Source: Lentisphaerae bacterium GWF2_57_35 (GTDB lineage: Bacteria > Verrucomicrobiota > Kiritimatiellia > CAIQIC01 > GWF2-57-35). From it: a stretch of DNA of 64,000 nt. Shown here one piece after another: positions 24,854-44,275 of the stretch. The notes under the pieces were generated by a model that worked only from the letters and a program-made list of their open reading frames with translations, was not told where the DNA came from and did not search any database. The stretch spans positions 62,001 to 126,000 of the forward strand of contig MHBK01000009.1 in the NCBI GenBank assembly GCA_001804865.1, given 5' to 3'. A program made the translations under genes and the position numbers. The number at the start of each line of letters is the position of its first letter. The first letter of the stretch is position 1.

Positions 24854-25042
24854 GTCTCTTCGCGTAGATATAGGCAATGCTCGAACTCTTAGTTGTCTCA
24901 TCAACGTTTTGTGGTCTCCTAGGGCGAAGAGGACTCGAAGCCAGTTAAATCCACTATCCACCGGGCCTAGAGGCCAACATCAAAAATACGCACGGAGTTC
25001 TTACTAAATCCCCAGCCTCCACCTCCTGACTAAATAGCAAAA

Positions 25043-26515
25043 ATGGATTTCTGCCTGACAAACGCTAACGAAAAAAATGTGTGCCGTCAAATTGCCGCCA
25101 TCACATATGCCGGCATTACCGCCCAAATACGGGAACAGATGCTTGGACTTCTTGATCGCAGAAGCAACGCCTCGATTTTTTCATATCGGCAGGCGCCATC
25201 CAGTATACGCGAGATCGTGGAATCTGTTGGCCGCTTAATGGAATTGAATACTAGGGATAGCGAGCCAGAGTTTCATCGTTTGCTACAGCGAATCTTGTCT
25301 AATTCAGCTATCAACGCCTTGATCAAACTGCAAGTCGCCGAACAATATTGCGCATTAACCGGCGGACAAAATGCCGCATGGGTTATACAAGATCTAAACG
25401 ACAATGAACTGACAGCTCCGCATCAGCAACTGCCGTTCATCAATCTATGTCTATGGACTAATCAGTTTGCTAAAGCAAAGACGGCTGCGGACAAAGTCAT
25501 CGAGTCCAAAGCTCAATCGATCTGTGACCATTTAGCCGCAAAGGCTGTTAGCTGGCATGTTCGTGACCGTCGTCGCGCGTCCCTATTTTGCTGGCATCAA
25601 GCTGCAAAGACCGGTCCACTGAACCCGGCGCAAATCCTTACGTTCTGCATGTTGTTGCTGGATATCGGACGGGTAAGTGCCGCCAAGCGGATTTTCCGCA
25701 AGATTGAGCACAGCGCATGTCACGCCAACCCCGACGATCAGTTGCGCACGGCCTTTGCACGCCACATGCTGAGTCTCTCATCGGAAGAAGACCTCCGAAA
25801 TGAAGCAGAATCACTCCTCCAGCGCACTTCATTGAATGCGTCGTTCATTCGTCTATTTCATCCGTGCTGCAATCAGCTGTTTTACAGGCTCGAGATTCCT
25901 CATCCGAATGCGTGCGACAAGAAACTGGCTCGCGCCTATTCACAATTATTGCTAGCGGAATGGCATCTCAAGCGTTTCTCACCTGAGTCCTTGCTAGTGG
26001 GCAGCAAATTCTTGGCATATTCAGACTTGATGCCGCAGGCCATGGAAATCATGGGGGAGCGTCAGATCAAAGATTCCACGTTCGTCGATGGTTTTTCGTC
26101 ATTGGCGGTCTACGCCTGGATTGCAGGTATGAATGATGCGGCACAAGCCTGCTACGCGCGCGAACCCTTGGAACGACCCCATACGTCCCTAGGCTGGCTT
26201 AGGATGGCGCTTGCCGCCGCACTGCTCGGCAAAATTTGCGAGGCCGAACGTTTTCTAAAAAGACTTTATGATCAAGCTCCTGATTTTTTTATACAGCAAC
26301 CATCCTCCACTCGACTTTGGGGTATTTTATCTATTCTTCTTAAGACGATGGGATGGGAAAGAGCCGCCAAACAAGTCGCGATCTTTGCAAGCAGCGATCC
26401 CTACTGGAAATATCGGCAACATCTCTTTGTGCGTTGTCCAATAGCTGAAAAAACAGCTGCGATTCCTGCCTTTAAATGGCCCGCTTTTTTCCAGCAAGAC
26501 TCGTTCTGGAATTGA
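25043..26515 (+). CDS. Hypothetical TPR-like helical protein at the start of the glycan locus
   Basis: A 490-residue protein not recognised as a whole. It is almost entirely helical, with loosely repeated pairs such as LLDIGRVSAAKRIFRKIE and LLGKICEAERFLKRLYDQAP, which resemble TPR repeats. There is no signal peptide. The first 30 residues contain several Cys and polar residues. It opens the AT-richer glycan locus, 45 nt before the bi-methyltransferase gene, and may act as a scaffold or regulator. No function can be assigned. The gap 24854-25042 before it holds no clear signal. Confidence 0.6.
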   Translation: MDFCLTNANEKNVCRQIAAITYAGITAQIREQMLGLLDRRSNASIFSYRQAPSSIREIVESVGRLMELNTRDSEPEFHRLLQRILSNSAINALIKLQVAEQYCALTGGQNAAWVIQDLNDNELTAPHQQLPFINLCLWTNQFAKAKTAADKVIESKAQSICDHLAAKAVSWHVRDRRRASLFCWHQAAKTGPLNPAQILTFCMLLLDIGRVSAAKRIFRKIEHSACHANPDDQLRTAFARHMLSLSSEEDLRNEAESLLQRTSLNASFIRLFHPCCNQLFYRLEIPHPNACDKKLARAYSQLLLAEWHLKRFSPESLLVGSKFLAYSDLMPQAMEIMGERQIKDSTFVDGFSSLAVYAWIAGMNDAAQACYAREPLERPHTSLGWLRMALAAALLGKICEAERFLKRLYDQAPDFFIQQPSSTRLWGILSILLKTMGWERAAKQVAIFASSDPYWKYRQHLFVRCPIAEKTAAIPAFKWPAFFQQDSFWN

Positions 26516-26560
26516 TCGCTTCGTATTGTTTGATGAACACGACCGCAATGAGAAGTTAAA

Positions 26561-28777
26561 ATGAAAAAACCTGTTTATTATCGGTGGTATAATTATCGTC
26601 GTGAAGCTTTGCCTAATGCTTATTTGGCTTCTTTAGAAGAAGGCGTCTCCTGTTTAGAAGAGGCTCAGGCCAAGACCGGTTATTCCATCGGCTATCCGGG
26701 CTGGAATTTGCTGTATTATGCGGCCGTGTGCGCATTGGATCCCCGCAAGGAGAACGTTATTCTTGAAACAGGAAGCAACATCGGCTGTTCATCTATTGTT
26801 CTTGCTCAAGCGTTGCGTGATGCAAAGGTGCGCGGTCATTTGCATACGATCGAAGCTGATCCTGCCGCGCATGAAAAAGCCGTGACCAACATAAAGCTCG
26901 CGGGATTAAGTGACCTCACTACAGCTCATCTTGGTCGCAGCGCGGAAATTCTTCCAAGCCTTCTGGCTTCACTTCGCGAACCCCTTTCCGTTGCGTTTTT
27001 GGACGCATCCCATCTCTTTGATGATATCATGTCCGAATTTTCGCTCGTCCTTCCGTATTTAAAAACGGACGGGGTTGTAATCTTCGACAATACTTACCCG
27101 CTCGCGGATAAAGGCGAGGATCCGCGTGTTCATGGCGCGCTTCTTGAGATTACAAATCGCTATGGGGGAAATGTTGTGCATTTTCCTTTTGTTTCCTGGT
27201 ACACCCCAGGAATGGCTGTTTGGCAGCCGGATCAGGAAGGCACCTCAAGAGATCTCATCAAGGTGCAACGACACGACGCCACAAATCAGGCTGTCGATGG
27301 GATATCGAAAACTCTTTCCTCGTGTAGCTTTGCCGTCACAACTTCATTACAGCGGATATTCCCTCACGTAGCGTACGAATCATTTTTGAAGGCTTTTACA
27401 GCTGTATTCCAAATCTATAGCAAGATCAGCGGACGATTTTGCGGCGATGGAGGAGATCATCTTGCGCAATACTGCGCTTGCATCGAATTCCTGAATACAC
27501 AACCGGACACAGAAGTCTTCAGGGCAGTCGAAATTGGCTCTCTTTTCGGAGGAAGCGCCTCTCTCATCCTTAGCGCAGCCAGGGACAGGGGCAAGGCAGC
27601 TAAACTGACTTGTATCGACCCTATGTCTGGTTTTTACGCAAAACCGGACATATCGGGAGTTGAAGTTTCTCCCAAAACCTTTTGGACCAATATTGGCCAC
27701 ATGGGCTTTGGACACGAGCAAGTGGATCTCCAGATCATGACAAGCGATGCTTTCGATGTTCGCACAAATATTGCCAATGAATCCTGCGGGATATTGCTGA
27801 TTGATGGAGATCATTCATATCAAGGAGTGAAGTCTGATTGGGAGAGATATTCGCACGTCGTCAGTCCAGGCGGATTCGTTCTGTTCGATGATTACGGCGA
27901 TGCCGCATGGCCAGACATCACACGCTTTGTCGATGATCTTGTTGCGGACTTGCCATGCGGATGGAAAGGATTGGGAGCCATCGGCACTACGTATGTTGTC
28001 TCGCGTTCTTACAGTGCGAAACCCACCGCAGTCCCGACAAAAGAGATTAGCGACGACTGGAATTCAACCATTGAATCGCTGGCCTTGGCAGATGAATTGA
28101 TCGGCAACAACATAGCTGACGGCTTCCAGCGCACGAGGAGGATCACCCAGCTGCTTTCTAATTTCCTTGGTCACTATCGCCACGTCACAGAGAAACACCG
28201 GAAAATTCAGCCCGTTTGCCCGACTTCGCAACCCAATCGAGCTCAAATCCGTGCTGTTCAACCACCGACTATTACTAGCGAGGGTCTAGAATGTGAATTT
28301 ACTCACGCCAAGAATGTCTTGAATGAATTCGATAAAGCTTATCAAAATAGAATCGCAGCATATGACCGTCTTCGCAAGACCCACGGTTTGTTTATTCGCG
28401 ATTTGCTGAAAATCAAATGGCAGAGCCTTCTGGAAAATGGCCATTTAGAACAAATTTGGCTCTACGGCGCAGGACAGCATACACGATGGCTTCTCCGCCA
28501 AGTGGCTCATCAAAAAGGCCCTCGAATTATAGGGATCATTGACGACGCAGCAATATCAGGGCAAACCATCGACGACATTCCTGTTCTTTCATTGAAGGCG
28601 GCATTAAAACACGATATTAAAGCCGTCATCCCATCCACTGACACGCCCAATAGCCCCTTGACACGCAAAGTAGCGCAAGTGTTTCAGCATAAGGCGCAAA
28701 TTATTTCTCTTTATTCGGATTGGCCTCCGGGGCCTTATCCCAAAGAGGAGGATACGAATAGTTCTCAGATTGAATGA
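26561..28777 (+). CDS. Fusion of two methyltransferase domains and the GAGxHT Rossmann module
   Basis: A 738-residue cytosolic protein with three parts. Residues about 50-220 are a Methyltransf_24-like domain (VILETGSNIGCSSIVLAQAL, then LDASHLFDDIMSEF). Residues about 300-490 are a second domain of the same class (AVEIGSLFGGSASLIL, then ILLIDGDHSYQGVKSDWERY, FVLFDDYGDA). After a linker, residues about 620-735 (28420-28760) hold the module IWLYGAGQHTRWLL ... GIIDDAA ... DIPVLS ... SLYSDW. The module recurs in at least six other proteins of this locus. Likely a glycan or precursor methyltransferase. The substrate is unknown, and whether both SAM sites are active is unclear. Confidence 0.8.
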   Translation: MKKPVYYRWYNYRREALPNAYLASLEEGVSCLEEAQAKTGYSIGYPGWNLLYYAAVCALDPRKENVILETGSNIGCSSIVLAQALRDAKVRGHLHTIEADPAAHEKAVTNIKLAGLSDLTTAHLGRSAEILPSLLASLREPLSVAFLDASHLFDDIMSEFSLVLPYLKTDGVVIFDNTYPLADKGEDPRVHGALLEITNRYGGNVVHFPFVSWYTPGMAVWQPDQEGTSRDLIKVQRHDATNQAVDGISKTLSSCSFAVTTSLQRIFPHVAYESFLKAFTAVFQIYSKISGRFCGDGGDHLAQYCACIEFLNTQPDTEVFRAVEIGSLFGGSASLILSAARDRGKAAKLTCIDPMSGFYAKPDISGVEVSPKTFWTNIGHMGFGHEQVDLQIMTSDAFDVRTNIANESCGILLIDGDHSYQGVKSDWERYSHVVSPGGFVLFDDYGDAAWPDITRFVDDLVADLPCGWKGLGAIGTTYVVSRSYSAKPTAVPTKEISDDWNSTIESLALADELIGNNIADGFQRTRRITQLLSNFLGHYRHVTEKHRKIQPVCPTSQPNRAQIRAVQPPTITSEGLECEFTHAKNVLNEFDKAYQNRIAAYDRLRKTHGLFIRDLLKIKWQSLLENGHLEQIWLYGAGQHTRWLLRQVAHQKGPRIIGIIDDAAISGQTIDDIPVLSLKAALKHDIKAVIPSTDTPNSPLTRKVAQVFQHKAQIISLYSDWPPGPYPKEEDTNSSQIE

Positions 28778-28897
28778 ATCTGGAAAAAAACAGCGAGCAT
28801 CTCTCATCATGCGGACCGGGAATGACGGTAGATAAGTTGGCACATCTAACGATGAAGCGGCGATTCTCGTCTGTGATCGAAAAAGATAAGGGAATAA

Positions 28898-30565
28898 ATG
28901 ATGAAAGCTTCAGAATTTCATATTCTTGATTATCTGATCAATCATTCCAAGAACATGCCTGAAAAAATTTTCTGTTTTTTCAGGACGGGCGCTGCTTACA
29001 ACCAGATAACGTATGGAGATCTCCTCAAAAAATCTGCGACTTTCGGAAACTACTTCAAGAATGCCGGCATAGTAAAGGGCGATGTGGTCCTTATTATGCT
29101 CAAGCATTGTCCGGAAATGTATTTTTCCTATATCGGCGCGATGTTAGCGGGGGCGGTCCCGTCATTCATTCCACCCCTAACGGAAAAGCAAGATTCATCC
29201 ATTTTCTGGTCTTCTCATGATGTGTTATTCAGACGGATTGAGGCGAAGGCATTAGTCTTAAGTCGATTGCATGAGGACATGGTAAAGGCCAATTTGAAGG
29301 AAGTTCCAACGGTGATTGCAGTAAACGACATTAGCGATAGCACCGAAACGGGCAACTATGACATCCAACGCTATCCGCTCGCGCTCCTGCAACACAGTTC
29401 AGGAACCACGGGACTTAAAAAGGGGGTTGAGTTATCGCATAAGGCTATCATCGAACAAGTCGTTCGGTATTCTGATGCGCTGGGACTTGAACCATCAGAC
29501 CGGTTCGCAAGTTGGTTGCCATTATATCATGACATGGGGTTGATTGCTTGCTTTCTACTTCCGCTTATCAAAGGTCTTTCAATTGTGTCTCAAGATGCAT
29601 TTGAATGGGTATCCAATCCGGTAATTTTGCTCGAAGACATCGACGCTTATCGATGCACTCACGCATGGCTGCCTAATTTTGCTTTTCATCACATCCTGCG
29701 ATTTCTGCATTCGGAACAATCATATAATTTGAGCAGCCTGAAAGCTTTGATCGATTGCTCCGAGCCTTGCAAGCCGTTTACAGCCAGTATGTTTATGAAA
29801 GAGATTGAACGCATGGGGTGTAGTCCGGCTGTTTTTCAGACATGTTATGCAATGGCTGAAACAGTTTTTGCAGTGACCCAAACCGATCTTCATCGTCCCC
29901 CCTCGGTCATACGCACCGACAAGGATAGCTTTCAAACTCATCAGCGCATCAAACTCTGCGAGAGCAATAGCTTGGAATTCATTTCTTGTGGCCGTCCTAT
30001 CTCCGGCATGACGGTTCGGATTGCAGACGAAACCGGCAGAACACTGAACGCGGGACAAGTGGGTGAAATCGTTGTGTCGGGACCATGTCTTTTTGACGGG
30101 TATTTCCGGTTGCCGGAAAAGTCTGCGGAACGATTGAAGGGGGGAGAGTACTACACCCATGATCTGGGCTTTATACACGACGAAGAGCTGTATGTGACAG
30201 GTCGTGTGGACGATCTAATTATTATTTATGGAAAAAAGTTCTACGCACATGACATTGAATTCATTGCCAATCAGTGTGCCGGCATCGCCAAAGGGCGCTG
30301 TGTAGCCATCGCCATGGAAAATCAGATGGCAGGGTCTCAAGAAATTGTGCTCTTGGCTGAAACAGACGAAACACAGGCCGAAACGAGAAAGAACATCATG
30401 TTAGAATTGAAACGTCAACTGTTGGCGCAGATGGGGCTGGCCATTCAACGCATCGTTTTGCTTGAAAAGGGACATTTAGTGAAAACAACCAGCGGCAAAA
30501 TCAGTCGGGATATGAATCGAAAGAACTATATTCAGTCCCTGCAAGCCGCAGGAGCAATGGCATGA
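28898..30565 (+). CDS. Fatty-acyl-AMP ligase-like AMP-binding enzyme
   Basis: A 555-residue adenylate-forming enzyme. The P-loop is LLQHSSGTTGLKKGVELSH, followed by SWLPLYHDMGLI (typical of fatty-acyl-AMP ligases), CYAMAETVF, YTHDLGF with the ribose-binding Asp, and the C-terminal catalytic lysine in TTSGKISRD (K534). These enzymes activate a fatty acid with ATP and load it on a carrier protein. The next gene, overlapping by 4 nt, is an acyl carrier protein, which strongly supports that role. Either of two consecutive ATGs (28898 or 28901 region) could be the start. Confidence 0.88.
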   Translation: MMKASEFHILDYLINHSKNMPEKIFCFFRTGAAYNQITYGDLLKKSATFGNYFKNAGIVKGDVVLIMLKHCPEMYFSYIGAMLAGAVPSFIPPLTEKQDSSIFWSSHDVLFRRIEAKALVLSRLHEDMVKANLKEVPTVIAVNDISDSTETGNYDIQRYPLALLQHSSGTTGLKKGVELSHKAIIEQVVRYSDALGLEPSDRFASWLPLYHDMGLIACFLLPLIKGLSIVSQDAFEWVSNPVILLEDIDAYRCTHAWLPNFAFHHILRFLHSEQSYNLSSLKALIDCSEPCKPFTASMFMKEIERMGCSPAVFQTCYAMAETVFAVTQTDLHRPPSVIRTDKDSFQTHQRIKLCESNSLEFISCGRPISGMTVRIADETGRTLNAGQVGEIVVSGPCLFDGYFRLPEKSAERLKGGEYYTHDLGFIHDEELYVTGRVDDLIIIYGKKFYAHDIEFIANQCAGIAKGRCVAIAMENQMAGSQEIVLLAETDETQAETRKNIMLELKRQLLAQMGLAIQRIVLLEKGHLVKTTSGKISRDMNRKNYIQSLQAAGAMA

Positions 30566-30819
30566 ATGAAGAAGAAGTATTCAAGCAGGTTATCGATTCC
30601 ATACGGTTGATATTTGGTGATTACGATGTGGTCATTACGAAAAAGACCGTCGCTGACGAAGTAAATGGCTGGGATTCTCTTTATCATTCATTGTTCATTC
30701 TGGATCTCGAAAAAAAATTTGGGATAACAATCCCTCTAGAAGTAACATGCTCGCTGAAAAATGTTGGGGAATTAGTCGAGTATATGATGAGGCGCATTCA
30801 TGAAAACAGTCGTTCTTGA
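30562..30819 (+). CDS. Acyl carrier protein (dedicated)
   Basis: An 85-residue carrier protein. The phosphopantetheine serine lies in GWDSLYHSLFI (Ser39), followed by LEKKFGITIP, the usual helix II-III pattern of ACPs. The ATG overlaps the stop of the acyl-AMP ligase gene (ATGA), and the end overlaps the WcbI-like gene by 20 nt. Both features tie the three genes together. It most likely carries the acyl group activated by the ligase to a glycan acyltransferase and is separate from the housekeeping ACP. Confidence 0.9.
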   Translation: MNEEEVFKQVIDSIRLIFGDYDVVITKKTVADEVNGWDSLYHSLFILDLEKKFGITIPLEVTCSLKNVGELVEYMMRRIHENSRS

Positions 30820-31648
30820 AGGCAATTGCCAAGCCGGAATAATGGCACGATTTTTAGGTCTTTGCCCTGTTTTGGCAACGGAATATGAATTCAAGCATGT
30901 GCCTAATTATGGCGAGGCAACGGCAGAACAACGCGGCCAATATAACCACTGGGCGACAACATGCGCTATCTGGATTGAGCAGGTCGGGACCACGCGAACG
31001 ACCGATTATAGCGGATATTTGGCGTCCCACTGTCGCCGCATTCGCATCCCGGTGCTGATTTGTTTATCATTATGGCCGCTAATGGCAAAAGATCCGCGAA
31101 GCAAACCAGAGTTGCCTGCCTATCCTTGGGGTAAATTCCCTTATGGCGACAAATTAGTTATCAAACTGTTGTCACGCTTGAATGACCCAGATCAAGTGTT
31201 CCAGGAATATGTGAATACGGATATCTCCTCAGAGGTAGATTTCAAGATGGTACATGAGATGACCTTGGAACGGTTTCGCCGCATTGAATCAACCTGTGAT
31301 TTTGGTGTTTCGGATTATTATGTTGAACACATTCAGAATGAACGGCTGTTTCATGCGGTCAATCATATGTCGGCCAATTTGATTGAGCAATTGGTGCAAT
31401 CGATAAGCTCTTGTTTGGCTTCTGAAGCCGGTCTTGCAGGGGCCGATTTGAGCGAGGGACAGCATAACCGCCACACAGCTTACGTACAACAGGAGCCTTT
31501 GGGAGGGGTGCAGCTTCCAATCCATCCCCAAGTCATAGAATTTTTCAAACTAACTTGGGTCAAGCCGGATGATTCTTACAAATATTTCAAGCAACATTTG
31601 AATTGGCGTAACTATCTAATGAAATATATTCGATACGAACTTGATTAA
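30800..31648 (+). CDS. WcbI-like capsular polysaccharide biosynthesis protein
   Basis: A 282-residue protein beginning MKTVVLEGNCQAGIMARFL. The GNCQ motif (residues 8-11), together with the later HPQVIEFF segment, is characteristic of the WcbI family (PF18588), first known from the Burkholderia capsule, where the protein binds coenzyme A and is thought to act in acyl transfer. The gene overlaps the ACP gene by 20 nt. Ligase, ACP and WcbI-like protein therefore look like one acylation unit for a glycan. The family assignment is by motif. Confidence 0.75.
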   Translation: MKTVVLEGNCQAGIMARFLGLCPVLATEYEFKHVPNYGEATAEQRGQYNHWATTCAIWIEQVGTTRTTDYSGYLASHCRRIRIPVLICLSLWPLMAKDPRSKPELPAYPWGKFPYGDKLVIKLLSRLNDPDQVFQEYVNTDISSEVDFKMVHEMTLERFRRIESTCDFGVSDYYVEHIQNERLFHAVNHMSANLIEQLVQSISSCLASEAGLAGADLSEGQHNRHTAYVQQEPLGGVQLPIHPQVIEFFKLTWVKPDDSYKYFKQHLNWRNYLMKYIRYELD

Positions 31649-31684
31649 CTGCAATCATTAGTCACACCTAAGAAGAAGGAAAAT

Positions 31685-32449
31685 ATGAATCAGACACAGA
31701 CCGGAATACAGGCCAGAATAAAAGGCCTTGAGCAAGACATGCAACGGAATTACGCCGATCGGGTCACGTTATTTAAGAAGGATGTCATCGATTATGCTTT
31801 CAGCGCTCTTAGCATCAAAAAAGTCGCAGAACTGGGTTGTATCTGGGGCGTGGATGGCGCATATGGTCAATACATTCATGATAAATACGCGCCGACAGAA
31901 GTAGTGATGGTAGATGCCATCTGGAATGAAAACGCCTTGCGTCTATGTCGAGAAAGAAAAAATATCACAACCGTGGATGGGAATTTCTGTGATGTTTCCA
32001 TGCCCCAACGAATTGGGAAAGTGGATGCGATAATTTTCTTTGATATTTTGTTACACATGGTATCCCCCAATTGGGACGAGATGCTTCGAATGTATGCCGA
32101 TTACACGAACGCCTTCCTCATTGTGAATCCGCAGTTTATGGCTACTTCTACAACGGTCCGACTCCTCGATCTAGGCGTCGACGAATATTTTCGAAATATC
32201 CCTCATGCCCCAGATTACCCAATCTATCAAACAGTCTTTGCAGATCCCTATCAAATGGATGCAAAACAAAACAAACCCCTTCGGGATGCTTTTTACATCT
32301 GGCAATGGGGGATTACCAATCATGACCTGATTGACAAGATGGACCGCATGGGCTTTGAGCCGGTTTTAATTCAGAAGGACAAGCTTTACTATGGCAAGGC
32401 AAAGAATTTCGCCAACTACGGCTTTATCTTTGCTCGCTCCCGCAAATGA
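31685..32449 (+). CDS. SAM-dependent methyltransferase-like protein
   Basis: A 254-residue protein. The motif I region is KKVAELGCIWGVDGAYGQYI, then VVMVDAIWNE (acidic residue after strand 2), then IGKVDAIIFFDILLHM. The N-terminal 35 residues are helical and charged. It follows the WcbI-like gene by 36 nt in the same operon. The substrate is probably a sugar or lipid intermediate of this locus. The 168 nt after its stop contain no convincing gene. Confidence 0.78.
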   Translation: MNQTQTGIQARIKGLEQDMQRNYADRVTLFKKDVIDYAFSALSIKKVAELGCIWGVDGAYGQYIHDKYAPTEVVMVDAIWNENALRLCRERKNITTVDGNFCDVSMPQRIGKVDAIIFFDILLHMVSPNWDEMLRMYADYTNAFLIVNPQFMATSTTVRLLDLGVDEYFRNIPHAPDYPIYQTVFADPYQMDAKQNKPLRDAFYIWQWGITNHDLIDKMDRMGFEPVLIQKDKLYYGKAKNFANYGFIFARSRK

Positions 32450-32617
32450 AAAACTCGTAAATTACTTTAAACACAATGGAAACTGCGCCATCCATGTCAC
32501 GGACTATATGGAAGGATCGTTCAAAACATCCTTGCCATATGAGAGTTCCTTCAACATCGCGACCTGCTGCCGGCTTAAAGCGGGAAAATCAATCTCACAA
32601 CCGGAAGAGATGCTGAT

Positions 32618-34306
32618 GTGACAGGATTATTTGTCATTCGCAATGCGTACGAATTAGATCACCTGACTCCAATGATTTCGCTGCTGGCTCAAAAGGACGA
32701 TCTCTTTCAGCTTCTTGTATTAAATGAAAACATTGCCCAGAATGATTATCGGCTGCATCACTTGGAAACGACGGGGCTGACCAAGATTGTTCGACCTCAT
32801 GATCTGTCGTTGTTATCCAGCGATGAATCTAGTCTAGCTACATGGCTGAATCTGCCGTGTCGGGGAGAGACTGGCTTCATCGCTTTCGGTTGGCTTCGTC
32901 ATGGCCAATACGGATTGGCGTTTGTCAAACGACTCATCGCTGCGGCAACCAAGCTGGGCATCCAAACGCTTTGCCTGCCTTCGGAAGCCTGCAGCTTTTC
33001 AAACCGTCTTGTCGCCCGTTCGGATACGGAAAGCAGCGTTATCCTTCGACATGAACCCGGCTGCTGGGTAAATCGCGTATTTGTAACATCGGACGTTTGT
33101 GAATCGAATTATCGGCCATGGGTGGAGTCTGAGCACTTAATTCGGACGGGATATGCACGATATTCCAATTCGTGGATATCCACACTCACTAAAATCGCTC
33201 CAGCTTTCCAATCGCCTGAAGCATTGGGTCATATAAAAATCGCCCTTTTTCTGCCGCGATATGAAATCCCCGCTAATTGGGACGAACTATTGTCCATTAT
33301 TCATATGCTTGCCCGCCAAGATCGCTTGTCTATCGCGATCAAACCGGATGACCAAGGGGCAGGACTTGAACGATTACAGAGGGCTTATCCAGCCTTGCGG
33401 GAGCTGGATGCGACCAACATTCGTTTTGTGGGTCACACGGTTGACAACATTTCACTGGTCCAATGGGCGGACTGGGTCTTGGATGCAGGTACAGAAGCTG
33501 TTTTTGATGCCATTGCACTGAACAAGCCTTTTCGATTGCTCGACTATCTCCTGTGCAATCGTTTAGTGGCTGCTGAGTTCTTTCCAAATACGCGCATTGG
33601 CTGCAGGGATGAGGTGGTGCAGTGGATGACGGCGCTTCCAAATGAAGAGCCGGGTGTATTAAGCAAATGCGAACGCAAAGCTTTTACTGAAAAAGTAATC
33701 AGAGAGTCCGCGTTGGTCTCACGTGACGATCTGTTCTCCGAGCAGCCACCGTCCCCCCGTTCGAAATCGCGTGCGCATTCCAATCAAATGGCGGGGACCA
33801 CTTGTGACGATCTGATCGCGAAGTCTGATCTTATGTTGCGAAATGACCAATTGCTCCGATCCATTGCTGCGTGTCATAAAATGATTGCTGCACGGGACAA
33901 AATGATCCAGATGAGAGAGGACTATCGCAATTCGGTATCCCGACTAGTTAAAGGATGTGTCAGAATATGCTGGGAACGGCTGGCTATCCAAGGTGTTACG
34001 AACGTCATTTTGTTCGGCGCCGGCAAGCATACCGACTGGTTGCTGCACGTTACGCATGACATGCCAACGCCTGCGGTCAGACTGATTCTGGACGATGCGG
34101 CCATTCCAGGGGAAACAAGGTTCGGCATTCCCGTTCTCCGACCATTGGATGCAACGCCGAACGGCGATCCCATCATTCTGTCAACGGATACGCATCAAGA
34201 AACCTTCCGAGCACGCTGCCAAACGTTGTTTGGCGAACGGATCAAATTGATAAATTTGTATGAGGAGCTACAGTTCCCTGGCCCTTATCCTAAAGGGATT
34301 TCATAA
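32618..34306 (+). CDS. GT-B-like protein (CDP-glycerol-transferase-like fold) with C-terminal GAGxHT module
   Basis: A 562-residue protein started by GTG at 32618, with GGAAGAGA upstream. The N-terminal 370 residues resemble a GT-B glycosyltransferase: IKIALFLPRYEIPANWDEL, RLSIAIKPDDQG, then VQWADWVLDAGTEAVFDAIALNKPF, the last being like the donor site of glycerophosphotransferase or capsule transferases. A linker of repeated ARDKMIQMRED-type helix follows. Residues about 455-562 are the module NVILFGAGKHTDWLL ... LILDDAAIPG ... GIPVLRP ... ILSTDTH ... INLYEE. Donor and acceptor unknown. The glycosyltransferase call rests on overall pattern only. Confidence 0.65.
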   Translation: MTGLFVIRNAYELDHLTPMISLLAQKDDLFQLLVLNENIAQNDYRLHHLETTGLTKIVRPHDLSLLSSDESSLATWLNLPCRGETGFIAFGWLRHGQYGLAFVKRLIAAATKLGIQTLCLPSEACSFSNRLVARSDTESSVILRHEPGCWVNRVFVTSDVCESNYRPWVESEHLIRTGYARYSNSWISTLTKIAPAFQSPEALGHIKIALFLPRYEIPANWDELLSIIHMLARQDRLSIAIKPDDQGAGLERLQRAYPALRELDATNIRFVGHTVDNISLVQWADWVLDAGTEAVFDAIALNKPFRLLDYLLCNRLVAAEFFPNTRIGCRDEVVQWMTALPNEEPGVLSKCERKAFTEKVIRESALVSRDDLFSEQPPSPRSKSRAHSNQMAGTTCDDLIAKSDLMLRNDQLLRSIAACHKMIAARDKMIQMREDYRNSVSRLVKGCVRICWERLAIQGVTNVILFGAGKHTDWLLHVTHDMPTPAVRLILDDAAIPGETRFGIPVLRPLDATPNGDPIILSTDTHQETFRARCQTLFGERIKLINLYEELQFPGPYPKGIS

Positions 34307-34339
34307 AGAAGAGTCTTTCTCATAAAACAGAATCATACG

Positions 34340-35347
34340 ATGACTCCTCAACCTCTTCTAAGCATAGCCATCCCCTCCTACGGGCGCAGTCGCGAGCTGC
34401 TTCATTCACTCTCAATCTTCGCCGATCAGATAGCGGCACAACCACCCGGTGAAATTGAGTTACATGTCGTAGATGATGCATCGCCAGACGATACCGGCGC
34501 AATCATGCAGAATTACATTTCAAGATTTCCATTCATGCACTATCACCGGCATCCTGAAAACCGGGGCCTTGAGCGAAATCTGATTGACTGCACGGATTCT
34601 TGCCGCGGAGAGTATCTATGGATTTTTGGGGATGACGACTTCCTTGAGCGGACAGATTCGTTAAGCGTCATATTGCATCAATTGCGAAAAAGAGAATTCG
34701 ATTTCTATATACTCAACCGCACGCGTAGAAATGCCGATTTGAGTCGCATCTTGAGCAACAACTGGATGCAGATGGATACCTCCATCGATATTCGGTTCGA
34801 GAGCTTGAAAGCTTTTTGTCTGCGCTGGGGTTTGATCAGTATCATTGGCTTCATATCCATCAACATTTTCCGTCGAGACCCTTTTGCCCGTCTAAGTCCA
34901 TCTCCCTATGCCGGCACTATGTACCCGCAACTGGGTATGATGATGGAAACGTTTCATGACAAACCCTGCCTGCTTCTTACCCAACCGCTTGTCTGCCACC
35001 GCACACAAACTGCGCAAGAAAAGAAAAATTCGTGGGGACGAAAAACTAGTGAACGTGATTTTTTTGGTGACGATAATTCGCGAAATGTGACGCACTTCGG
35101 AATTCGCTGGATTCGGTTGTTGAGGGAACTTGTGCACCGTGGCGCGCTAGAATGGCGCGATATTAGCTTTATCCCTGAAAGCACGGTCATTGATGGCTAT
35201 TTGGTGGATTTCCTTCTGGATAATATGGAGTTGGCACTCGTTCTGGGACATCGCGAAACAATCTCAAATTGGCCGATTGTCGACGATTTTTTAAGCAGAG
35301 TGAACCTAGTGGGAGAACGACGCAACCGATGGCTTGCCATGAGATGA
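34340..35347 (+). CDS. GT2 family glycosyltransferase
   Basis: A 335-residue GT-A enzyme. It begins LLSIAIPSYGRSREL, with VVDDASPDDT as the nucleotide-binding region and YLWIFGDDDFLE as the metal-binding DxD segment. The C-terminal 130 residues are unrecognised. No membrane segment is seen, so it is a cytosolic transferase of the locus. It lies 33 nt after the previous gene and 21 nt before the next, in one probable transcript. The nucleotide sugar used cannot be told. Confidence 0.85.
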   Translation: MTPQPLLSIAIPSYGRSRELLHSLSIFADQIAAQPPGEIELHVVDDASPDDTGAIMQNYISRFPFMHYHRHPENRGLERNLIDCTDSCRGEYLWIFGDDDFLERTDSLSVILHQLRKREFDFYILNRTRRNADLSRILSNNWMQMDTSIDIRFESLKAFCLRWGLISIIGFISINIFRRDPFARLSPSPYAGTMYPQLGMMMETFHDKPCLLLTQPLVCHRTQTAQEKKNSWGRKTSERDFFGDDNSRNVTHFGIRWIRLLRELVHRGALEWRDISFIPESTVIDGYLVDFLLDNMELALVLGHRETISNWPIVDDFLSRVNLVGERRNRWLAMR

Positions 35348-35368
35348 AATGCTGGGGAATAAACTGAC

Positions 35369-37114
35369 ATGAGCAATAAAACTGACTTGACCATCTCCGT
35401 TATCACGCCGAGTTATAACCAGGCAGATTTTCTGCCTTACTGTCTCGATTCCGTCGCCATGCAAAACTATGCGCCTATCGAGCACCTCGTCTATGACCCA
35501 GGCTCGACGGATAGCAGCCGAGAGACCGCTCTCCGCTATCCGCATGTCACGCTGCTCGCTGAGTCGGATCGCGGCCAGGCAGAGGCCGTAAACAAGGGGT
35601 TCACGCGCGCCAAGGGGGATATCCTGGCCTGGATCAATTCCGACGATTGTTACGCGGATGAAGCAGTTTTCGCCCGTGTAATCGCGCGCTTCAACGAGAG
35701 CGATCACCCGGACATCGTGTATGGGAAAGGCATTTTTACCAACGAAAAAGACGAATACCTGCGCGACGCCTATATTCACACCCGCTCGGACTTGCTTTTC
35801 TGGTTGTTTCAACAAGGAACAGGGATTCTTCAACCGGCAACGTTCATACGCCGCGAGGTGTTCGAAAAAGTCGGACGGATCAACGAATCGCTTCACTACA
35901 GTATGGATTACGAATACTGGATTCGGTGCGTCAAATCGAAGATTCAATTTGTGTACCAGGATGATTGTTATGCAAAAGCGCGTTATCACATTAAAAACAA
36001 AACCTTTGGCATGAGGGGTGAAAGCTATCGTGAGGTTTGCGAGATGTTGCTCTCGCAGTACGGTTATGTAAATCACAACTGGTTACGGCGTTATGCAGAA
36101 TACCGTGTGCAAGGGTTTGACGGCGTGCTTACTCATACAGGCAATCATCCATCCGATACAGAATCCATTGAAGTCGAATACAAAAAACTTCTCAAGGCCT
36201 ATAACGGTGGATTTGATGTGCGACGCTACATCACCGAACACAAGGATGAACGAGGCTGGCGCGACACGCAGAAGGAAATGGATCGTCTGAAGATTTCTGA
36301 AGGAACACCGTGTCATTCCATTCCTCTTGATCAAGCGACAGAGCAGGGAAATGTCTGTTATACCGTTGGGCCGCGTCGTTGGGCTTTCCGAGCCGATTGG
36401 AAAAAAGAACAAATTGTTAAAACGCATATGTTTCTTCGAGAGCGAATAGCCCAGCGTCACACCGATACTTGCGTTATCGTAGGTAATGGGCCAAGCCTCA
36501 AGCAGACCGACTTGAGTTTGCTGGTTGGGCAGGACGTAATCATTTCGAACAATGCGTTTCTAAATCCTGACTTGATTCGTCAAGCCGCCTTTTACACCGT
36601 GGTCAATTATCTCGTGGCGGAACAAAGTGCACCTTACATCAATCTTTTGCGCGGGCCCTGCAAAATCCTTCCTTATTGGCTCAGCTATTGCCTCAACGAG
36701 GGAGATGACACCTATTTTCTAGATGCGGTAGGCTATCCAGAATTCAGCACGGACATTTTCAAGAACGCATCGTGGCGGCATACCGTCAGTTTCTTCAATA
36801 TGCACTTGGCCTATGGCTTAGGATACAAACGGGTTGTTTTGGTTGGGTTTGATCACTCCTACACCCAACAGCAAGGCATCAAGGAAGGAGACGTTATTAC
36901 TCAGTTGGAGGATGACATAAACCATTTCGATCATTCTTACTTTCGCGGACGCAAATGGCAGGCCGCCGATGTGGATAACATGGAAAAAATGTATGAATTG
37001 GCCAAGAACGCGTATGAACAGGATGGGCGTGAAATCGTTAATGCAACCGTCGGCGGCCATTTGGAGTTGTTCAATCGCATGAGCCTGAAAGAAGCGTTGA
37101 TAGGGAGCCCCTGA
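35369..37114 (+). CDS. Fusion of GT2 glycosyltransferase and DUF115 (MAF/MptE-like) domain
   Basis: A 581-residue protein. Residues 1-230 are a GT2 domain (TISVITPSYNQADFLPYCLD, YDPGSTDSS, LAWINSDDCY). After a linker, residues about 365-575 form a DUF115-type domain: CVIVGNGPSLKQTDLSLL, VVLVGFDHSYTQ, then FDHSYFRGRKWQAADVDNM and GREIVNATVGGHLELF. DUF115 occurs in motility-associated factors that decorate flagellin with nonulosonic acids and in archaeal MptE. Here it probably transfers or modifies a charged sugar. The same domain occurs at 38315-39394 and as a remnant at 45.9 kb. Confidence 0.82.
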   Translation: MSNKTDLTISVITPSYNQADFLPYCLDSVAMQNYAPIEHLVYDPGSTDSSRETALRYPHVTLLAESDRGQAEAVNKGFTRAKGDILAWINSDDCYADEAVFARVIARFNESDHPDIVYGKGIFTNEKDEYLRDAYIHTRSDLLFWLFQQGTGILQPATFIRREVFEKVGRINESLHYSMDYEYWIRCVKSKIQFVYQDDCYAKARYHIKNKTFGMRGESYREVCEMLLSQYGYVNHNWLRRYAEYRVQGFDGVLTHTGNHPSDTESIEVEYKKLLKAYNGGFDVRRYITEHKDERGWRDTQKEMDRLKISEGTPCHSIPLDQATEQGNVCYTVGPRRWAFRADWKKEQIVKTHMFLRERIAQRHTDTCVIVGNGPSLKQTDLSLLVGQDVIISNNAFLNPDLIRQAAFYTVVNYLVAEQSAPYINLLRGPCKILPYWLSYCLNEGDDTYFLDAVGYPEFSTDIFKNASWRHTVSFFNMHLAYGLGYKRVVLVGFDHSYTQQQGIKEGDVITQLEDDINHFDHSYFRGRKWQAADVDNMEKMYELAKNAYEQDGREIVNATVGGHLELFNRMSLKEALIGSP

Positions 37115-38265
37115 TGAAATTAGATGAAACAAGAATAGCCTACGAATATCTCTCCGCGACGCGAACAAAAGGCGTCATGCTGGATGTCGGCGCACATATC
37201 GGAGGATCGGCCCTACCCTTTCTTGCGAACGGCTGGCGAGTATGCGCTTTCGAGCCCAATGATGAAAACCGGGAAAAACTTACCCGTTTGGCGGAACAGT
37301 ACCCGTTGCTCTCCGTTGACCCCAGAGCGGTCTCTGACAAATCCGGGCAGAAGGCGCCCTTCTATGCAAGCCATGTATCGACAGGAATTGGGTCCCTCAG
37401 TCCATTTCACAGCAGTCATGCGCTCAGCAGCCACGTAGACACCGTGACGCTCGTTGACTTCTGCAGGGAAAAACAAATTAGCAAGGTTGATTTCTTGAAG
37501 ATCGATACAGAAGGACACGACTTCTTTGTTTTAAAAGGTTTCCCCTGGGACACACTTCAGCCGGACATTATTGAATGCGAATTCGAAGACCGCAAAACGA
37601 GCATGCTGGGATATTCTTTTGGCGAGATGGCCGATTTTCTGACAACGCGAGGCTATGAAGTGCTGGTGTCGGAATGGGACCCCATCGTGGAATATGGGGG
37701 AAACCATCAATGGCATGCATTTAAAGCATGGCCATGTACTTTGGAAAAAGCCGAGAGCTGGGGCAATCTGCTTGCGTTCCGTGGAGGCCTGAACAGGGAA
37801 AGGCTATGCAACGCCATCGCCCAAACGCTTGGGCGCGACGTTGAGCGCGTGAGTCAGAAAAAAGCTCCCGCATCTACGCCTCAAAGAAATCGCGACGAAA
37901 TGATGCGCGCATATTTACGTTTGCGTTGGCGCGGCTTGCGAGCGGAAGGCGTTCATAGCGTCTACCTTTTTGGTGCAGGCAAGTTCACAAAATGGTTTAT
38001 GCCGCTGATCCACGACGCACAGGGACCCTCCATAATTGGCGTGCTGGATGATCAGGCAGTGTGCGGACAGACGATCGGAAGCACGCCGGTCTTACGTCCA
38101 GACAAAGTTGATGTCGGGCTTACCGATGGCGTAATTCTTTCAACGGATTCCCTGCGCAATGTGTTTACAGAACGCTGCCGCAGTCTGTATGGAATGGATG
38201 TGAGGCTGATTGATCTCTTTGAGGATCTAGGGGGCGAAAGCCCCAAGACCGTCAAAGGAGAGTAG
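37114..38265 (+). CDS. FkbM-type methyltransferase with C-terminal GAGxHT module
   Basis: A 383-residue protein. The N-terminal 230 residues are FkbM-like: GVMLDVGAHIGGSALPFLA (motif I), CAFEPNDENREKL, then VDFLKIDTEGHDFFVLKGF, the family hallmark. Residues about 260-375 are helix plus module: SVYLFGAGKFTKWFM ... GVLDDQAVCGQ ... TPVLRPD ... ILSTDSLR ... IDLFED. The ATG overlaps the stop of the previous gene by 1 nt. Probable O-methylation of a sugar hydroxyl. The module has Phe in place of the usual His. Confidence 0.85.
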   Translation: MKLDETRIAYEYLSATRTKGVMLDVGAHIGGSALPFLANGWRVCAFEPNDENREKLTRLAEQYPLLSVDPRAVSDKSGQKAPFYASHVSTGIGSLSPFHSSHALSSHVDTVTLVDFCREKQISKVDFLKIDTEGHDFFVLKGFPWDTLQPDIIECEFEDRKTSMLGYSFGEMADFLTTRGYEVLVSEWDPIVEYGGNHQWHAFKAWPCTLEKAESWGNLLAFRGGLNRERLCNAIAQTLGRDVERVSQKKAPASTPQRNRDEMMRAYLRLRWRGLRAEGVHSVYLFGAGKFTKWFMPLIHDAQGPSIIGVLDDQAVCGQTIGSTPVLRPDKVDVGLTDGVILSTDSLRNVFTERCRSLYGMDVRLIDLFEDLGGESPKTVKGE

Positions 38266-38314
38266 AACAATTTTTTGCCGAAGTAGAATCGGCATTTGAC
38301 GATCGAGGCAAACA

Positions 38315-39394
38315 TTGTCGCGAGAATATATATTTCGTGAAGCCTATTTCCGTGAAGTCTGGCAGCGCCTTGTCAGACACTATAAATCTGTCGCTATTTA
38401 CGGCGCGGGTAAACACACGGATTGGTTGCTTCATCATGTGGTTTCTCCCGAACAAATCGAATCCGTTCGCGTTATTCTGGATGATTGCGCACCTCTAAAC
38501 GGTTCACTGCAGGGGCGACCTGTTATTGCGACCGCGGATTATGTCCCCCGTCCGGATGAAGTGGTTTTTGTTTCATCGGATGTTCATGAACGCGTCATGG
38601 CGGAACGGATATGCAAGATGTTCCCCGAGACGGAAATAGTCGCCCCATATGCCAATACAGGATATGGACCTTTCGAGCTGCCGCTCACGTTGGAACTCGA
38701 TGCATGCGCAAAGAATCGGGCTGCGATAGCGTCGTTTTCCCGACGTCATATCGGACAACGGTGCTTTATCCTGGGCAATGGACCCAGCTTGCGTGATACG
38801 AATTTGTCCCGGTTATCAGGCGAAATCACCTTTGGCTTGAACCGCATCTACCTGATGGAAAAGCTGATGGGTTTCAAGCCGTCGTACTATGTAGCCGTCA
38901 ACCCTCACGTGCTTGAGCAATTTCGAGACGACATTTCCAACAAAGTCCAATGCCCAAAGTTTATCAGTTCTGCCATGGCTCATCACTTTGAAGAACGGGA
39001 TGACGTCATGTTTTTTGATCATCAGTCGATACCCACTTTCCAAACCAATTTATTGGATCCCCTCTGGATTGGCGCTACGGTAACGTATGTGGCCATGCAA
39101 ATCGCTTTTTATATGGGCTTTCAGCAAGTCATTCTACTGGGCGTCGATCATTCTTTTACGACGCAAGGCAAGCCTCATGCCTTGGTTGAGTCCACGTGCG
39201 CCGACCCCAATCATTTTTGCGCGGATTATTTCGGTCAGGGCATCCGATGGCAATTACCCGATCTAGCCACTTCAGAACTGGCCTATTCATTGGCCCGATA
39301 CGCCTATTCGCAGAATGGACGCGAAATATTGGATGCGACCTTGCGCGGTCATTTAACTATTTTCCCGAAGGTGGATTACAATCAATTGTTTTAA
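38315..39394 (+). CDS. N-terminal GAGxHT module fused to a DUF115 domain
   Basis: A 359-residue protein in which the module comes first (about residues 1-115): SVAIYGAGKHTDWLL ... RVILDDCAPLNG ... GRPVIAT ... FVSSDVH. A DUF115 domain follows (about 145-359): CFILGNGPSLRDTNLSRL, VILLGVDHSFTTQGK, DPNHFCADYFGQGIRW, GREILDATLRGHLTIF. It starts at TTG 38315, because the in-frame stop TGA at 38297-38299 excludes an upstream start and the next Met is far inside the protein. This order shows that the module can be placed at either end of its partners. Confidence 0.78.
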   Translation: MSREYIFREAYFREVWQRLVRHYKSVAIYGAGKHTDWLLHHVVSPEQIESVRVILDDCAPLNGSLQGRPVIATADYVPRPDEVVFVSSDVHERVMAERICKMFPETEIVAPYANTGYGPFELPLTLELDACAKNRAAIASFSRRHIGQRCFILGNGPSLRDTNLSRLSGEITFGLNRIYLMEKLMGFKPSYYVAVNPHVLEQFRDDISNKVQCPKFISSAMAHHFEERDDVMFFDHQSIPTFQTNLLDPLWIGATVTYVAMQIAFYMGFQQVILLGVDHSFTTQGKPHALVESTCADPNHFCADYFGQGIRWQLPDLATSELAYSLARYAYSQNGREILDATLRGHLTIFPKVDYNQLF

Positions 39395-39471
39395 AGCAAC
39401 AGACGTGATCTTCGATCATGGGTCTCCTATTATCGAAGCAGGGTTTCACTTGGCATACGGAGGTTTTGCTC

Positions 39472-40155
39472 ATGATCGGTTCTGACAAAATAGTGGCGCT
39501 TCTGCCGATGAAGGCGCATTCAGAGCGTCTTGCGGACAAGAATATCCGACCCTTCTGCGGGCGCCCGCTCTATCATCACACGTTGCACGCACTGGCGGCG
39601 ATGACCGAAGTGGATGAGATTGTCGTCGATACGGACAGCGAACTAATTTCAATGGAAGCCCCGATCCTTTCGCCCAAGGTTCGAATTATCGAGCGTCCGG
39701 TGGAGTTGCGCGGGGATTTCGTGAGTATGAACCGGATTATCGAGCATGATTTGAGTCGGACAGACGGCAGTATTTTTTTGCAGACGCATTCAACCAATCC
39801 GCTGATTCGCTCGGGAACTTATGCACTCGCTCTGCGTTGCTTTCGAGAAGCAGAGGGACAGGATTCGTTGTTCAGCGTGAATCGTTATCAGAGCCGTTTT
39901 TATGACGCAGATATGCGTCCCATGAATCATCAGCCGGGGCATTTGATTCGCACCCAAGATTTACCCCCAATGTTTGAGGAAAACTCCTGCATCTATATTT
40001 TCACCAAAGAATCGTTTGCCCGAAGTGGCGCCCGCCTGGGCAAGAGTCCCCGTCTGTTTGTCACCCCCCGCTTGGAGTCGGTGGATATTGATGACGAAGA
40101 GAGCTGGCGACTCGCCGAATTGATTGGCAAAACGATGACCATTCATCCAGACTGA
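39472..40155 (+). CDS. Cytidylyltransferase, NeuA-like (acylneuraminate/CMP-sugar type)
   Basis: A protein of about 227 residues. It begins KIVALLPMKAHSERLADKNI, the nucleotide-binding motif of CMP-nonulosonate and Kdo cytidylyltransferases, followed by RPLYHHTL, EIVVDTDSE and FLQTHSTNPLI. The start ATG 39472 has ACGGAGG 8-9 nt upstream. It would activate a sugar acid with CTP for a transferase in the locus. The nearby DUF115 proteins fit such a donor. No NeuB-type synthase is in the window, so the acid must be made elsewhere or be something unusual. Confidence 0.85.
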   Translation: MIGSDKIVALLPMKAHSERLADKNIRPFCGRPLYHHTLHALAAMTEVDEIVVDTDSELISMEAPILSPKVRIIERPVELRGDFVSMNRIIEHDLSRTDGSIFLQTHSTNPLIRSGTYALALRCFREAEGQDSLFSVNRYQSRFYDADMRPMNHQPGHLIRTQDLPPMFEENSCIYIFTKESFARSGARLGKSPRLFVTPRLESVDIDDEESWRLAELIGKTMTIHPD

Positions 40156-40186
40156 ACAGGGAACACAGGCTCCAAACGGGAAGTCC

Positions 40187-41167
40187 ATGACAGCCACAAC
40201 GCCTATAATTTCGATCATTATTCGCTGCCGCAACGAGGAGCGGCATATCGGACGCCTGTTGGAAGGCATTTTGAGTCAGCAGCGAAAGGATGCAGAAATT
40301 ATTGTAGTGGATTCAGGCTCGACGGATGCAACGCTTCTCATTGCGCGTCGATATCCGGTAAAAATCATCTCTGTTGAGCCAGCCAGTTTTTCATTTGGCT
40401 ATGCCTTAAACCGCGGATGTGAGGAGGCGCAGGGCGAGTTTCTTGTTTTCGTCAGCGCCCACGTCTATCCGGTTTATCGCAACTGGCTGGATGAAATGCT
40501 CCAGCCTTTTGCGGACGAAAAAGTAGCCTTGGTTTACGGACGACAATGCGGCGATATACGCACAAAATATGCTGAACGCCGTATTTTTGCCAAATGGTTT
40601 CCGTCCGAATCAAGTGCATGCCAAGCCCATGCCTTCTGCAACAACGCAAACACCGCCGTACGTAAATGCGTGTGGATGACTCATCGTTACGACGAGTCGC
40701 TGACGGGGTTGGAAGATCTGGATTGGGCTCGTCGAGTAAAGGCGCTGGGTTATCGGATTGCTTATCAAGCTCAGGCCGAGGTGGTGCATGTGCACGAGGA
40801 AACATATCGGCAGATTTATACGCGCTATTATCGCGAAGCCATAGCCATGAAACGGATGTTTCCGGAAGAGCAGTTCTCATTCTTCGACCTGATTCGCGCA
40901 CTTACCGGCAATGTGATCAGCGATTGGCGTTATGCGCTTCATGAGCACGTCCTACATCGAGAGTGGATTAGGATTGTACGTTTTCGAACCATGCAGTTTG
41001 TGGGAACGTTCAAGGGTTACCGTATGCGAATAGGCATGCTGCCCGAATTACGCGACAGGTTCTACTATCCAGATGGCCGCCCGCCAGCAACCGCATCGGT
41101 AGAGGCAGCGACAAACAATCTGATTATTGATTATTCACGGCAGGATGGAGGCCACGATGATAATTGA
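40187..41167 (+). CDS. GT2 family glycosyltransferase (rhamnosyltransferase-like)
   Basis: A 326-residue GT-A enzyme: ISIIIRCRNEERHIGRLLEG, EIIVVDSGSTDAT, and FLVFVSAHVYPV at the position of the acidic metal-binding motif, where the usual DxD reads SAH as in many rhamnosyltransferase-like members. GLEDLDWARRVKALGYRIAY is the ED acid-base segment. The C-terminal part is basic and aromatic. It overlaps the next gene by 11 nt, indicating cotranscription. Donor and acceptor unknown. Confidence 0.83.
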   Translation: MTATTPIISIIIRCRNEERHIGRLLEGILSQQRKDAEIIVVDSGSTDATLLIARRYPVKIISVEPASFSFGYALNRGCEEAQGEFLVFVSAHVYPVYRNWLDEMLQPFADEKVALVYGRQCGDIRTKYAERRIFAKWFPSESSACQAHAFCNNANTAVRKCVWMTHRYDESLTGLEDLDWARRVKALGYRIAYQAQAEVVHVHEETYRQIYTRYYREAIAMKRMFPEEQFSFFDLIRALTGNVISDWRYALHEHVLHREWIRIVRFRTMQFVGTFKGYRMRIGMLPELRDRFYYPDGRPPATASVEAATNNLIIDYSRQDGGHDDN

Positions 41168-41801
41168 CATATCCATGCCGGTTCAACCAGGCATGCCGAT
41201 ATGGGAGGGAATTGAACCGTCCCGTCTCGAATGGACGCTTCGCATGGAACGAGGGGACGCCGTAAACAATAGCCGGATTGAGATGGATCTTCACAGCGGG
41301 ACGCATATTGATGCGCCTCTGCACTTCATGCAGGATGGATATTCAGCCGATATGCTACCCCTGCAGGCATTTTGCGGAGCCGTTTTCGTAGCCGGTGTTC
41401 CGGGTGTGAAGCATATCGGCGAGCGAGAAATCGAAGCCCTCAAACTACCTTCACACGTGGAACGCGTTTTATTCAAGACGGACAATTCCAGGCGGCGGCT
41501 ATATGAAAAACCTGAATTTCACACGGATTTCACTGCACTGACCCCATCTGGAGCACGATCGTTGCTTAAGCGGGGAACAAGACTGGTCGGCATCGATTAT
41601 CTGTCCATTGCCCCATACGGTGATGCAAAAGAGACTCATGAAGTTTTGCTAAGTGAGGGAATCATTGTGCTGGAAGGGCTCTGTCTGCATGATGTGGAAC
41701 CCGGCTTCTATGAGTTGATTTGTCTGCCTATTCGTCTAGTCGGGACGGAAGCCACGCCTGTACGGGCCATATTGAAACCGAAAGCAAACCAAGTCGGATG
41801 A
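41157..41801 (+). CDS. Cyclase family protein (kynurenine-formamidase-like)
   Basis: A protein of about 214 residues of the PF04199 fold. The metal-binding signature is SGTHIDAPLHF, with further conserved VLFKTDNS and GIDYLSIAPYG segments. The ATG at 41157 follows GGATGGAGG and overlaps the previous gene by 11 nt. Members hydrolyse N-formylkynurenine, isatin or polyketide-like substrates. In a glycan locus it more likely opens or forms a lactone or amide in an unusual precursor. It heads a set with a 2-hydroxyacid dehydrogenase and an SDR, but the pathway is unknown. Confidence 0.82.
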   Translation: MIIDISMPVQPGMPIWEGIEPSRLEWTLRMERGDAVNNSRIEMDLHSGTHIDAPLHFMQDGYSADMLPLQAFCGAVFVAGVPGVKHIGEREIEALKLPSHVERVLFKTDNSRRRLYEKPEFHTDFTALTPSGARSLLKRGTRLVGIDYLSIAPYGDAKETHEVLLSEGIIVLEGLCLHDVEPGFYELICLPIRLVGTEATPVRAILKPKANQVG

Positions 41802-41805
41802 ATTT

Positions 41806-43511: not shown

Positions 43512-43588
43512 GTTCACCTCATGAATACTCGCCTCATTTAAACCCATTATTTTTCAGGCGCCGTTGCTGGCGAGGGGCTCAGGGTACG

Positions 43589-44044: not shown

Positions 44045-44275
44045 CGTGGGCTCCAGTACAAAGGCTATCGAATATATTTTTCTTTGTATGCGTAAAAGGA
44101 ACATAACCGAAAACAAATGGGTTCGTAAAACAGAAATAGTTTCAGGTAATGAGTTCCATGATCATATGTCAGCCCGATGGGATCACAGCAAATCAGTCAG
44201 CCGTGAGACATCTTGCCTCATGAATGAGCGCGCCCATTGGAGCATCACGGATACCTCAAGAACTCTGGCCATATT

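Follow-up and report, generated by a model that had tools for sequence, protein, structure and literature searches.

A fatty acyl-AMP ligase, an ACP-like protein and a WcbI-type protein encoded together in a glycan locus of a Lentisphaerae bacterium: a candidate acyl-transfer relay

The stretch of DNA analysed here, the window, spans 64,000 nucleotides of the genome of Lentisphaerae bacterium GWF2_57_35. Among a series of genes for glycosyltransferases and sugar modification it carries three overlapping genes, which encode a FAAL-type fatty acyl-AMP ligase, a small protein resembling an acyl carrier protein (ACP) and a WcbI-type protein. The trio and its neighbours are as follows; G118 denotes a distantly related genome of the phylum sample.

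26561..28777, + strand: protein with two Methyltransf_24 domains and a C-terminal nucleotide-binding-like module (PF13578; module alignment)
28898..30565, + strand: FAAL-type fatty acyl-AMP ligase, 555 aa (PF00501; nearest PDB structures are FAALs; clade with the G118 FAAL)
30562..30819, + strand: putative private ACP, 85 aa, with attachment serine Ser39 in GWDSL (PRK12449 and PF00550, both below cut-off; aligned with the G118 and Niveispirillum ACPs)
30800..31648, + strand: WcbI-type protein, 282 aa, predicted acyltransferase (PF18588; predicted model against 4bqn; residue alignment)
31685..32449, + strand: methyltransferase-like gene (PF13649 at E 7e-4, below cut-off; gene order)
34340..41167, + strand: glycan locus with glycosyltransferases, MptE-like (DUF115-type) proteins, an FkbM methyltransferase and a CMP-sugar-type cytidylyltransferase (family scans)

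The coordinates of the open reading frames bear out the overlaps given in the preliminary description: the FAAL and ACP genes share 4 nucleotides (ATGA), the ACP and WcbI genes 20. Gene overlap by itself carries little weight; the trio rises above chance because it is conserved in the distant genome G118. On the 5' side the neighbouring gene ends 120 nucleotides before the FAAL gene, while on the 3' side the methyltransferase-like gene begins 36 nucleotides beyond the trio and possibly shares its transcript. When the trio was scanned for promoters and terminators, the site counts lay within about one standard deviation of those of shuffled sequences, with no excess. The GC content of the glycan region (25000–44000) drops to 44–52%, against about 58% on either side; that of the FAAL, ACP and WcbI genes is 46.0%, 38.4% and 45.3%, respectively, compared with 58% in the flanks. 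Family scans covered 20 proteins of the window, a subset of its open reading frames, and among these 20 there was neither an export or flippase family nor a serine palmitoyltransferase family. Elsewhere the genome holds five flagellin-family matches and three matches to Poly_export.

How well do the three labels FAAL, ACP and WcbI-like, first assigned from the sequence alone, hold up? Family, fold and key residues agree, and we retain them. The ligase matches PF00501 (AMP-binding) at 195.7 bits, and its closest solved structures are themselves FAALs, 3kxw first, then 7r7g and 3pbk. FAALs use fatty acids as substrate and carry a specific insertion that bars the use of CoA; the corresponding segment of the window FAAL aligns without large gaps to the Legionella FAAL 3kxw. 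The 85-residue protein is divergent, ACP-like by motif, size and context, and misses the curated cut-offs: it scores 17.1 bits against PF00550 (PP-binding, cut-off 20.8) and, among the NCBIfam acyl carrier models, at best 42.6 bits (PRK12449, E 4e-11, cut-off 70). Its counterpart in G118 passes the PF00550 cut-off at 21.7 bits. The predicted attachment residue, Ser39, is the serine of GWDSL, and this serine is invariant in all three stand-alone ACPs aligned (window, G118 and Niveispirillum). The genome contains one AcpS-type phosphopantetheinyl transferase gene, and it encodes another, separate ACP that scores above the cut-off.

The WcbI-type protein matches PF18588 at 98.1 bits (cut-off 29.2). 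A structure predicted from six sequences (pLDDT 84.2, pTM 0.81) was compared with 4bqn, the WcbI of Burkholderia pseudomallei. At an identity of 15%, the model superimposes on 4bqn_B with Z 20.5 and rmsd 3.1 over 256 aligned residues, the next unrelated row lying at Z 11.3; Foldseek gave E 1e-10. Cys10 and His189 align to Cys14 and His201 of 4bqn, and this Cys and His pair is present in all 13 WcbI-family members aligned to that structure, the window's included. On the other hand, Tyr97, Arg167 and Asn172 of 4bqn are unmatched in a sequence alignment that is weak there, and the Arg294 segment lies outside the fold-aligned range; several WcbI proteins that have no ACP beside them also stop before it. 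At position 167, in the same weak alignment of 13 members, Arg occurs in five proteins of the Azospirillum type and in none of the three ACP-linked WcbI proteins. It is also replaced in Leisingera, in Microvirga, in the Pseudomonas alcaligenes protein and in a pair linked to GSCFA-family proteins. We asked whether the missing CoA contacts prove that an ACP is the donor, and rejected the argument, since residue 167 is not Arg in several ACP-less WcbI proteins either and the alignment there is weak. In the Pseudomonas alcaligenes locus (L029:7812-9881) WcbI is fused to a methyltransferase-like domain; the window WcbI precedes a methyltransferase-like gene.

Is the trio found elsewhere? FAAL, ACP and WcbI occur in the same order in the window's genome and in G118, the two full trios found, and in both genomes the sole WcbI gene directly follows FAAL–ACP. 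The check for the trio in other genomes thus recovered it in a distant relative, and its being kept together there upholds the earlier proposal that the genes form a unit dedicated to acylation and equipped with its own ACP. The other condition named against that proposal, an ACP lacking phosphopantetheinylation, likewise finds no support as far as the sequence goes, the serine being retained and an AcpS-type gene present. Pairwise identities between the two trios are 46.5% (FAAL), 36.1% (ACP) and 28.3% (WcbI). The FAAL and ACP genes of G118 again overlap by 4 nucleotides; its WcbI gene starts 11 nucleotides past the ACP stop codon and encodes a TPR-like C-terminal extension. The G118 trio is isolated, outside any glycan locus and with no glycan genes near; its neighbours, read by eye, are unrelated genes and include an alpha-hydroxy-acid dehydrogenase-like and an RlmN-like open reading frame. 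PF18588 itself is rare in this phylum. It was matched in 2 of the 387 genomes of the phylum sample (the window's, G000, and G118). Samples from the class and the order to which G118 belongs gave 2 matches among 384 and 2 among 372 genomes, respectively, and a sample of 345 from the class of the window's genome gave 2, one of them below the cut-off. These samples overlap; taken together, they contain four genomes with a match above the cut-off, namely the window's, G118, G586 and G1039.

The FAALs tell the same two genomes apart from the rest of the phylum. Of the 387 genomes, 18 have a FAAL that matches with E no higher than 1e-40, and only G000 and G118 have the trio type. A profile of the trio FAALs scores 1148.6 and 1124.5 bits in these two, inflated because the profile was built from them, and 262.2 bits for the next. 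With the window FAAL as sole query the scores are 517 bits for G118, 346 for a FAAL on a Leptolinea plasmid and about 202 for the best other FAAL of the phylum, and in a tree the window and G118 FAALs group together at 100/99. Among 37 relatives of the window's genome we found no comparable FAAL, the best match being a split frame in G037 whose two parts are 27% and 33% identical. This and the low GC content point to a horizontal arrival of the trio region.

How general is the pairing of WcbI with an ACP? A detectable ACP adjoins WcbI in 3 of 13 loci, the window's included. This count omits a further candidate, G752, which lies below the cut-off (E 4e-4) and has two internal stops. The ten loci with no detected ACP comprise six of Azospirillum/betaproteobacterial type, Leisingera, Microvirga and two linked to GSCFA. 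A family-wide rule is therefore not established: the pairing is recurrent, not general. In the third ACP-linked case, on a Niveispirillum plasmid, an FkbH_N-domain protein, an ACP, WcbI and a MaoC/SDR protein stand in a row, so that here WcbI follows a different kind of ACP loading enzyme. The WcbI genes of Leisingera and Microvirga also lie within polysaccharide loci. A wider search for the trio, in which genome contigs were scanned with WcbI, gave five loci; each was of the Azospirillum type, and an ACP was detected in none. The plasmids yielded four distinct WcbI records overall; scans of the viral collection with WcbI queries revealed no relative, and in phages no WcbI was found.

GSCFA-family proteins are a second recurrent partner of WcbI, fused to it or adjoining it in two genomes of the phylum (L031:109-2205 and L035:1492-3411). 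G586 encodes a WcbI–GSCFA fusion, while in G1039 WcbI adjoins GSCFA and a sulfotransferase-like gene; no ACP was detected in either.

One contig of the viral collection (L063:4421-7369) encodes, in a single open reading frame of 982 residues, an unknown N-terminal domain with a Cys motif, an ACP with the GWDSL motif and a FAAL of the trio type. It sits between a Methyltransf_24 gene and an FkbM gene. When its FAAL is added to the tree, the window, G118 and L063 FAALs group together at 98/99. Might the N-terminal domain be a WcbI? Profile comparison gives no support (hhalign probability 0.3%); searches of Pfam, NCBIfam and the PDB sequences gave nothing credible for this domain, and its single-sequence model has a pLDDT of 39.4. 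Two other phylum genomes (L059:6068-8664 and L060:5199-8131) carry a different type of FAAL beside a weakly ACP-like open reading frame and, by eye, a conserved neighbour of about 284 residues; in one of the two an acyltransferase-like gene lies near, also by eye.

What might a WcbI do? We know of no activity for any member of the family. The WcbI of B. pseudomallei is encoded in a capsule locus and is needed for capsule antigen and virulence; it binds CoA with a Kd of 58 uM, and in the crystal CoA is disulfide-bonded to Cys14, with His201 near the acetyl group (PMC4104973). In the assays described there, neither GDP-mannose nor mannotetraose was seen to be acetylated, and the structure showed no site for a second substrate; the 2013 study proposed that the acceptor is presented by a partner yet to be identified (PMC4104973). 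This protein (PDB 4bqn/4bqo, PF18588) and that of the window are alike in fold, in the Cys/His pair at the CoA thiol end and in their placement in a polysaccharide locus. They differ in that the other CoA-contact residues are not visibly retained in the window protein, the alignment being weak there, and in that the part of PMC4104973 consulted describes no FAAL or stand-alone ACP as partner of the Burkholderia protein.

We give an even chance to the proposition that the trio is a small acyl-transfer relay, running from FAAL to private ACP to WcbI to acceptor. The analysis establishes how the genes are ordered, to which families and fold they belong, and that the key residues and the trio itself are conserved; the steps that follow, with the acceptor and the chain length, are inferred. 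First, the FAAL would convert a free carboxylic acid (a fatty acid, probably) into acyl-AMP and load the acyl group onto the phosphopantetheine arm that its private ACP carries. WcbI would then dock the acyl-ACP via its Cys/His pair, where the B. pseudomallei protein holds the thiol end of CoA, so that the arm of the ACP would take the place of CoA, and would hand the acyl group to an acceptor. In the window, the glycan that the surrounding locus makes probably provides the acceptor sugar; in G118 the acceptor would have to come from elsewhere. Counting against the relay are the ten WcbI loci with no detected ACP, the score of the window ACP below the PF00550 cut-off and the small number of full trios, two. 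The arrangement suggests that the missing partner of WcbI may be an acyl-ACP donor, unlike the acceptor-presenting protein proposed in 2013. We hold more tentatively, as a conjecture that probably goes too far, that the ACP-linked WcbI proteins at least, and perhaps the whole family, are acyltransferases that take their donor from a carrier, the missing partner being a holo-ACP with its arm in the CoA cleft. Were it true, a single family of transferases would receive various acyl groups, depending on the loader (FAAL, FkbH).

Why a sugar? The trio is surrounded by glycosyltransferases, methyltransferases, MptE-like proteins and a cytidylyltransferase, and a sugar is therefore the likeliest acceptor there. 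The flagellin and Poly_export matches in the genome make two products possible, a glycan of the flagellum and a polysaccharide that is exported. The isolation of the G118 trio shows that a glycan locus is not required, and this weakens the case for a sugar. It also lends weight to a different product, an acylated small molecule or a membrane lipid, with the position in a glycan locus incidental; the window trio and the DNA around it are also low in GC, as is expected of mobile DNA, and this fits as well. Against it stand the glycosyltransferase and sugar-modifying genes around the window trio, the capsule locus from which WcbI was originally described (PMC4104973) and the polysaccharide loci of Leisingera and Microvirga, and we consider such a product possible though on balance unlikely. 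The relay could likewise serve a polysaccharide in which a long fatty acid is the membrane anchor of the exported chain. That FAALs use fatty acids and that three Poly_export matches lie elsewhere in the genome would suit this. The preliminary description had predicted a fatty-acylated or lipid-anchored polysaccharide, a prediction for which we find no support: the 20 scanned window proteins include no export or flippase family, which also disposes of a lipid anchor with a dedicated exporter in this set, and the G118 trio has no glycan genes near. We regard the anchor as very improbable.

Could WcbI instead acetylate the glycan from acetyl-CoA, the FAAL and ACP serving another nearby enzyme and the genes being merely co-transcribed? 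The affinity of the B. pseudomallei protein for CoA (PMC4104973) speaks for this, as does the lack of a detected ACP beside WcbI in 10 of 13 loci. Yet the sole WcbI gene lies directly 3' of FAAL–ACP in two genomes, and in Niveispirillum an FkbH-type loader and an ACP precede it. Of the CoA contacts, Arg167 and Asn172 have no like residue aligned in the window protein, and the Arg294 segment lies outside the aligned range, a point blunted by the several ACP-less WcbI proteins that also end before that segment. We think this division of labour improbable, and prefer the relay.

No paper linking WcbI to an ACP or a FAAL was found in the open-licence literature searched. What parallels are there for the relay? 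In Rhodobacteria, AcpR is loaded by AasR and in turn feeds serine palmitoyltransferase (PMC9386255). As in the trio, a specialised acyl-ACP synthetase with its own ACP supplies one acyl-using enzyme; the likeness claimed is one of mechanism only, the consumer being serine palmitoyltransferase there and a WcbI-type protein in the window. In Flavobacterium psychrophilum (wfpD/wfpG) an O-antigen-specific ACP is the predicted acyl donor to a sugar nucleotide, whereas the acyl group is made by ketoacyl synthases and not supplied by a FAAL, and the transferase is PglD-like, not WcbI (PMC6519341, in the sections consulted). The wcb and rkp capsule clusters likewise encode an acyl-making enzyme, the type I PKS WcbR/RkpA; this is a multidomain protein with no separate FAAL and ACP, and the portion of PMC3908369 consulted claims no link to WcbI. 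The trio would be one more way of acylating glycans or lipids, and a small one of three genes. As a natural cassette, FAAL–ACP–WcbI offers a concrete, testable candidate for the missing partner of WcbI and a simple assay system, one that comes from environmental bacteria.

A further feature of the window concerns the glycan enzymes themselves. An iterative profile search detected a module of about 110 residues (GAGKHT...DD...GIPVL...STD), weakly matching PglD_N, on seven proteins of differing kinds: methyltransferases, glycosyltransferases, a CDP-glycerol-type transferase and an MptE-like protein (26561-28777, 32618-34306, 37114-38265, 38315-39394, 44237-45877, 50824-52326 and 52341-53522). 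An eighth carrier was recognised by eye at 54760-56025. Through it, these enzymes of glycan synthesis may be tied to one shared partner or substrate.
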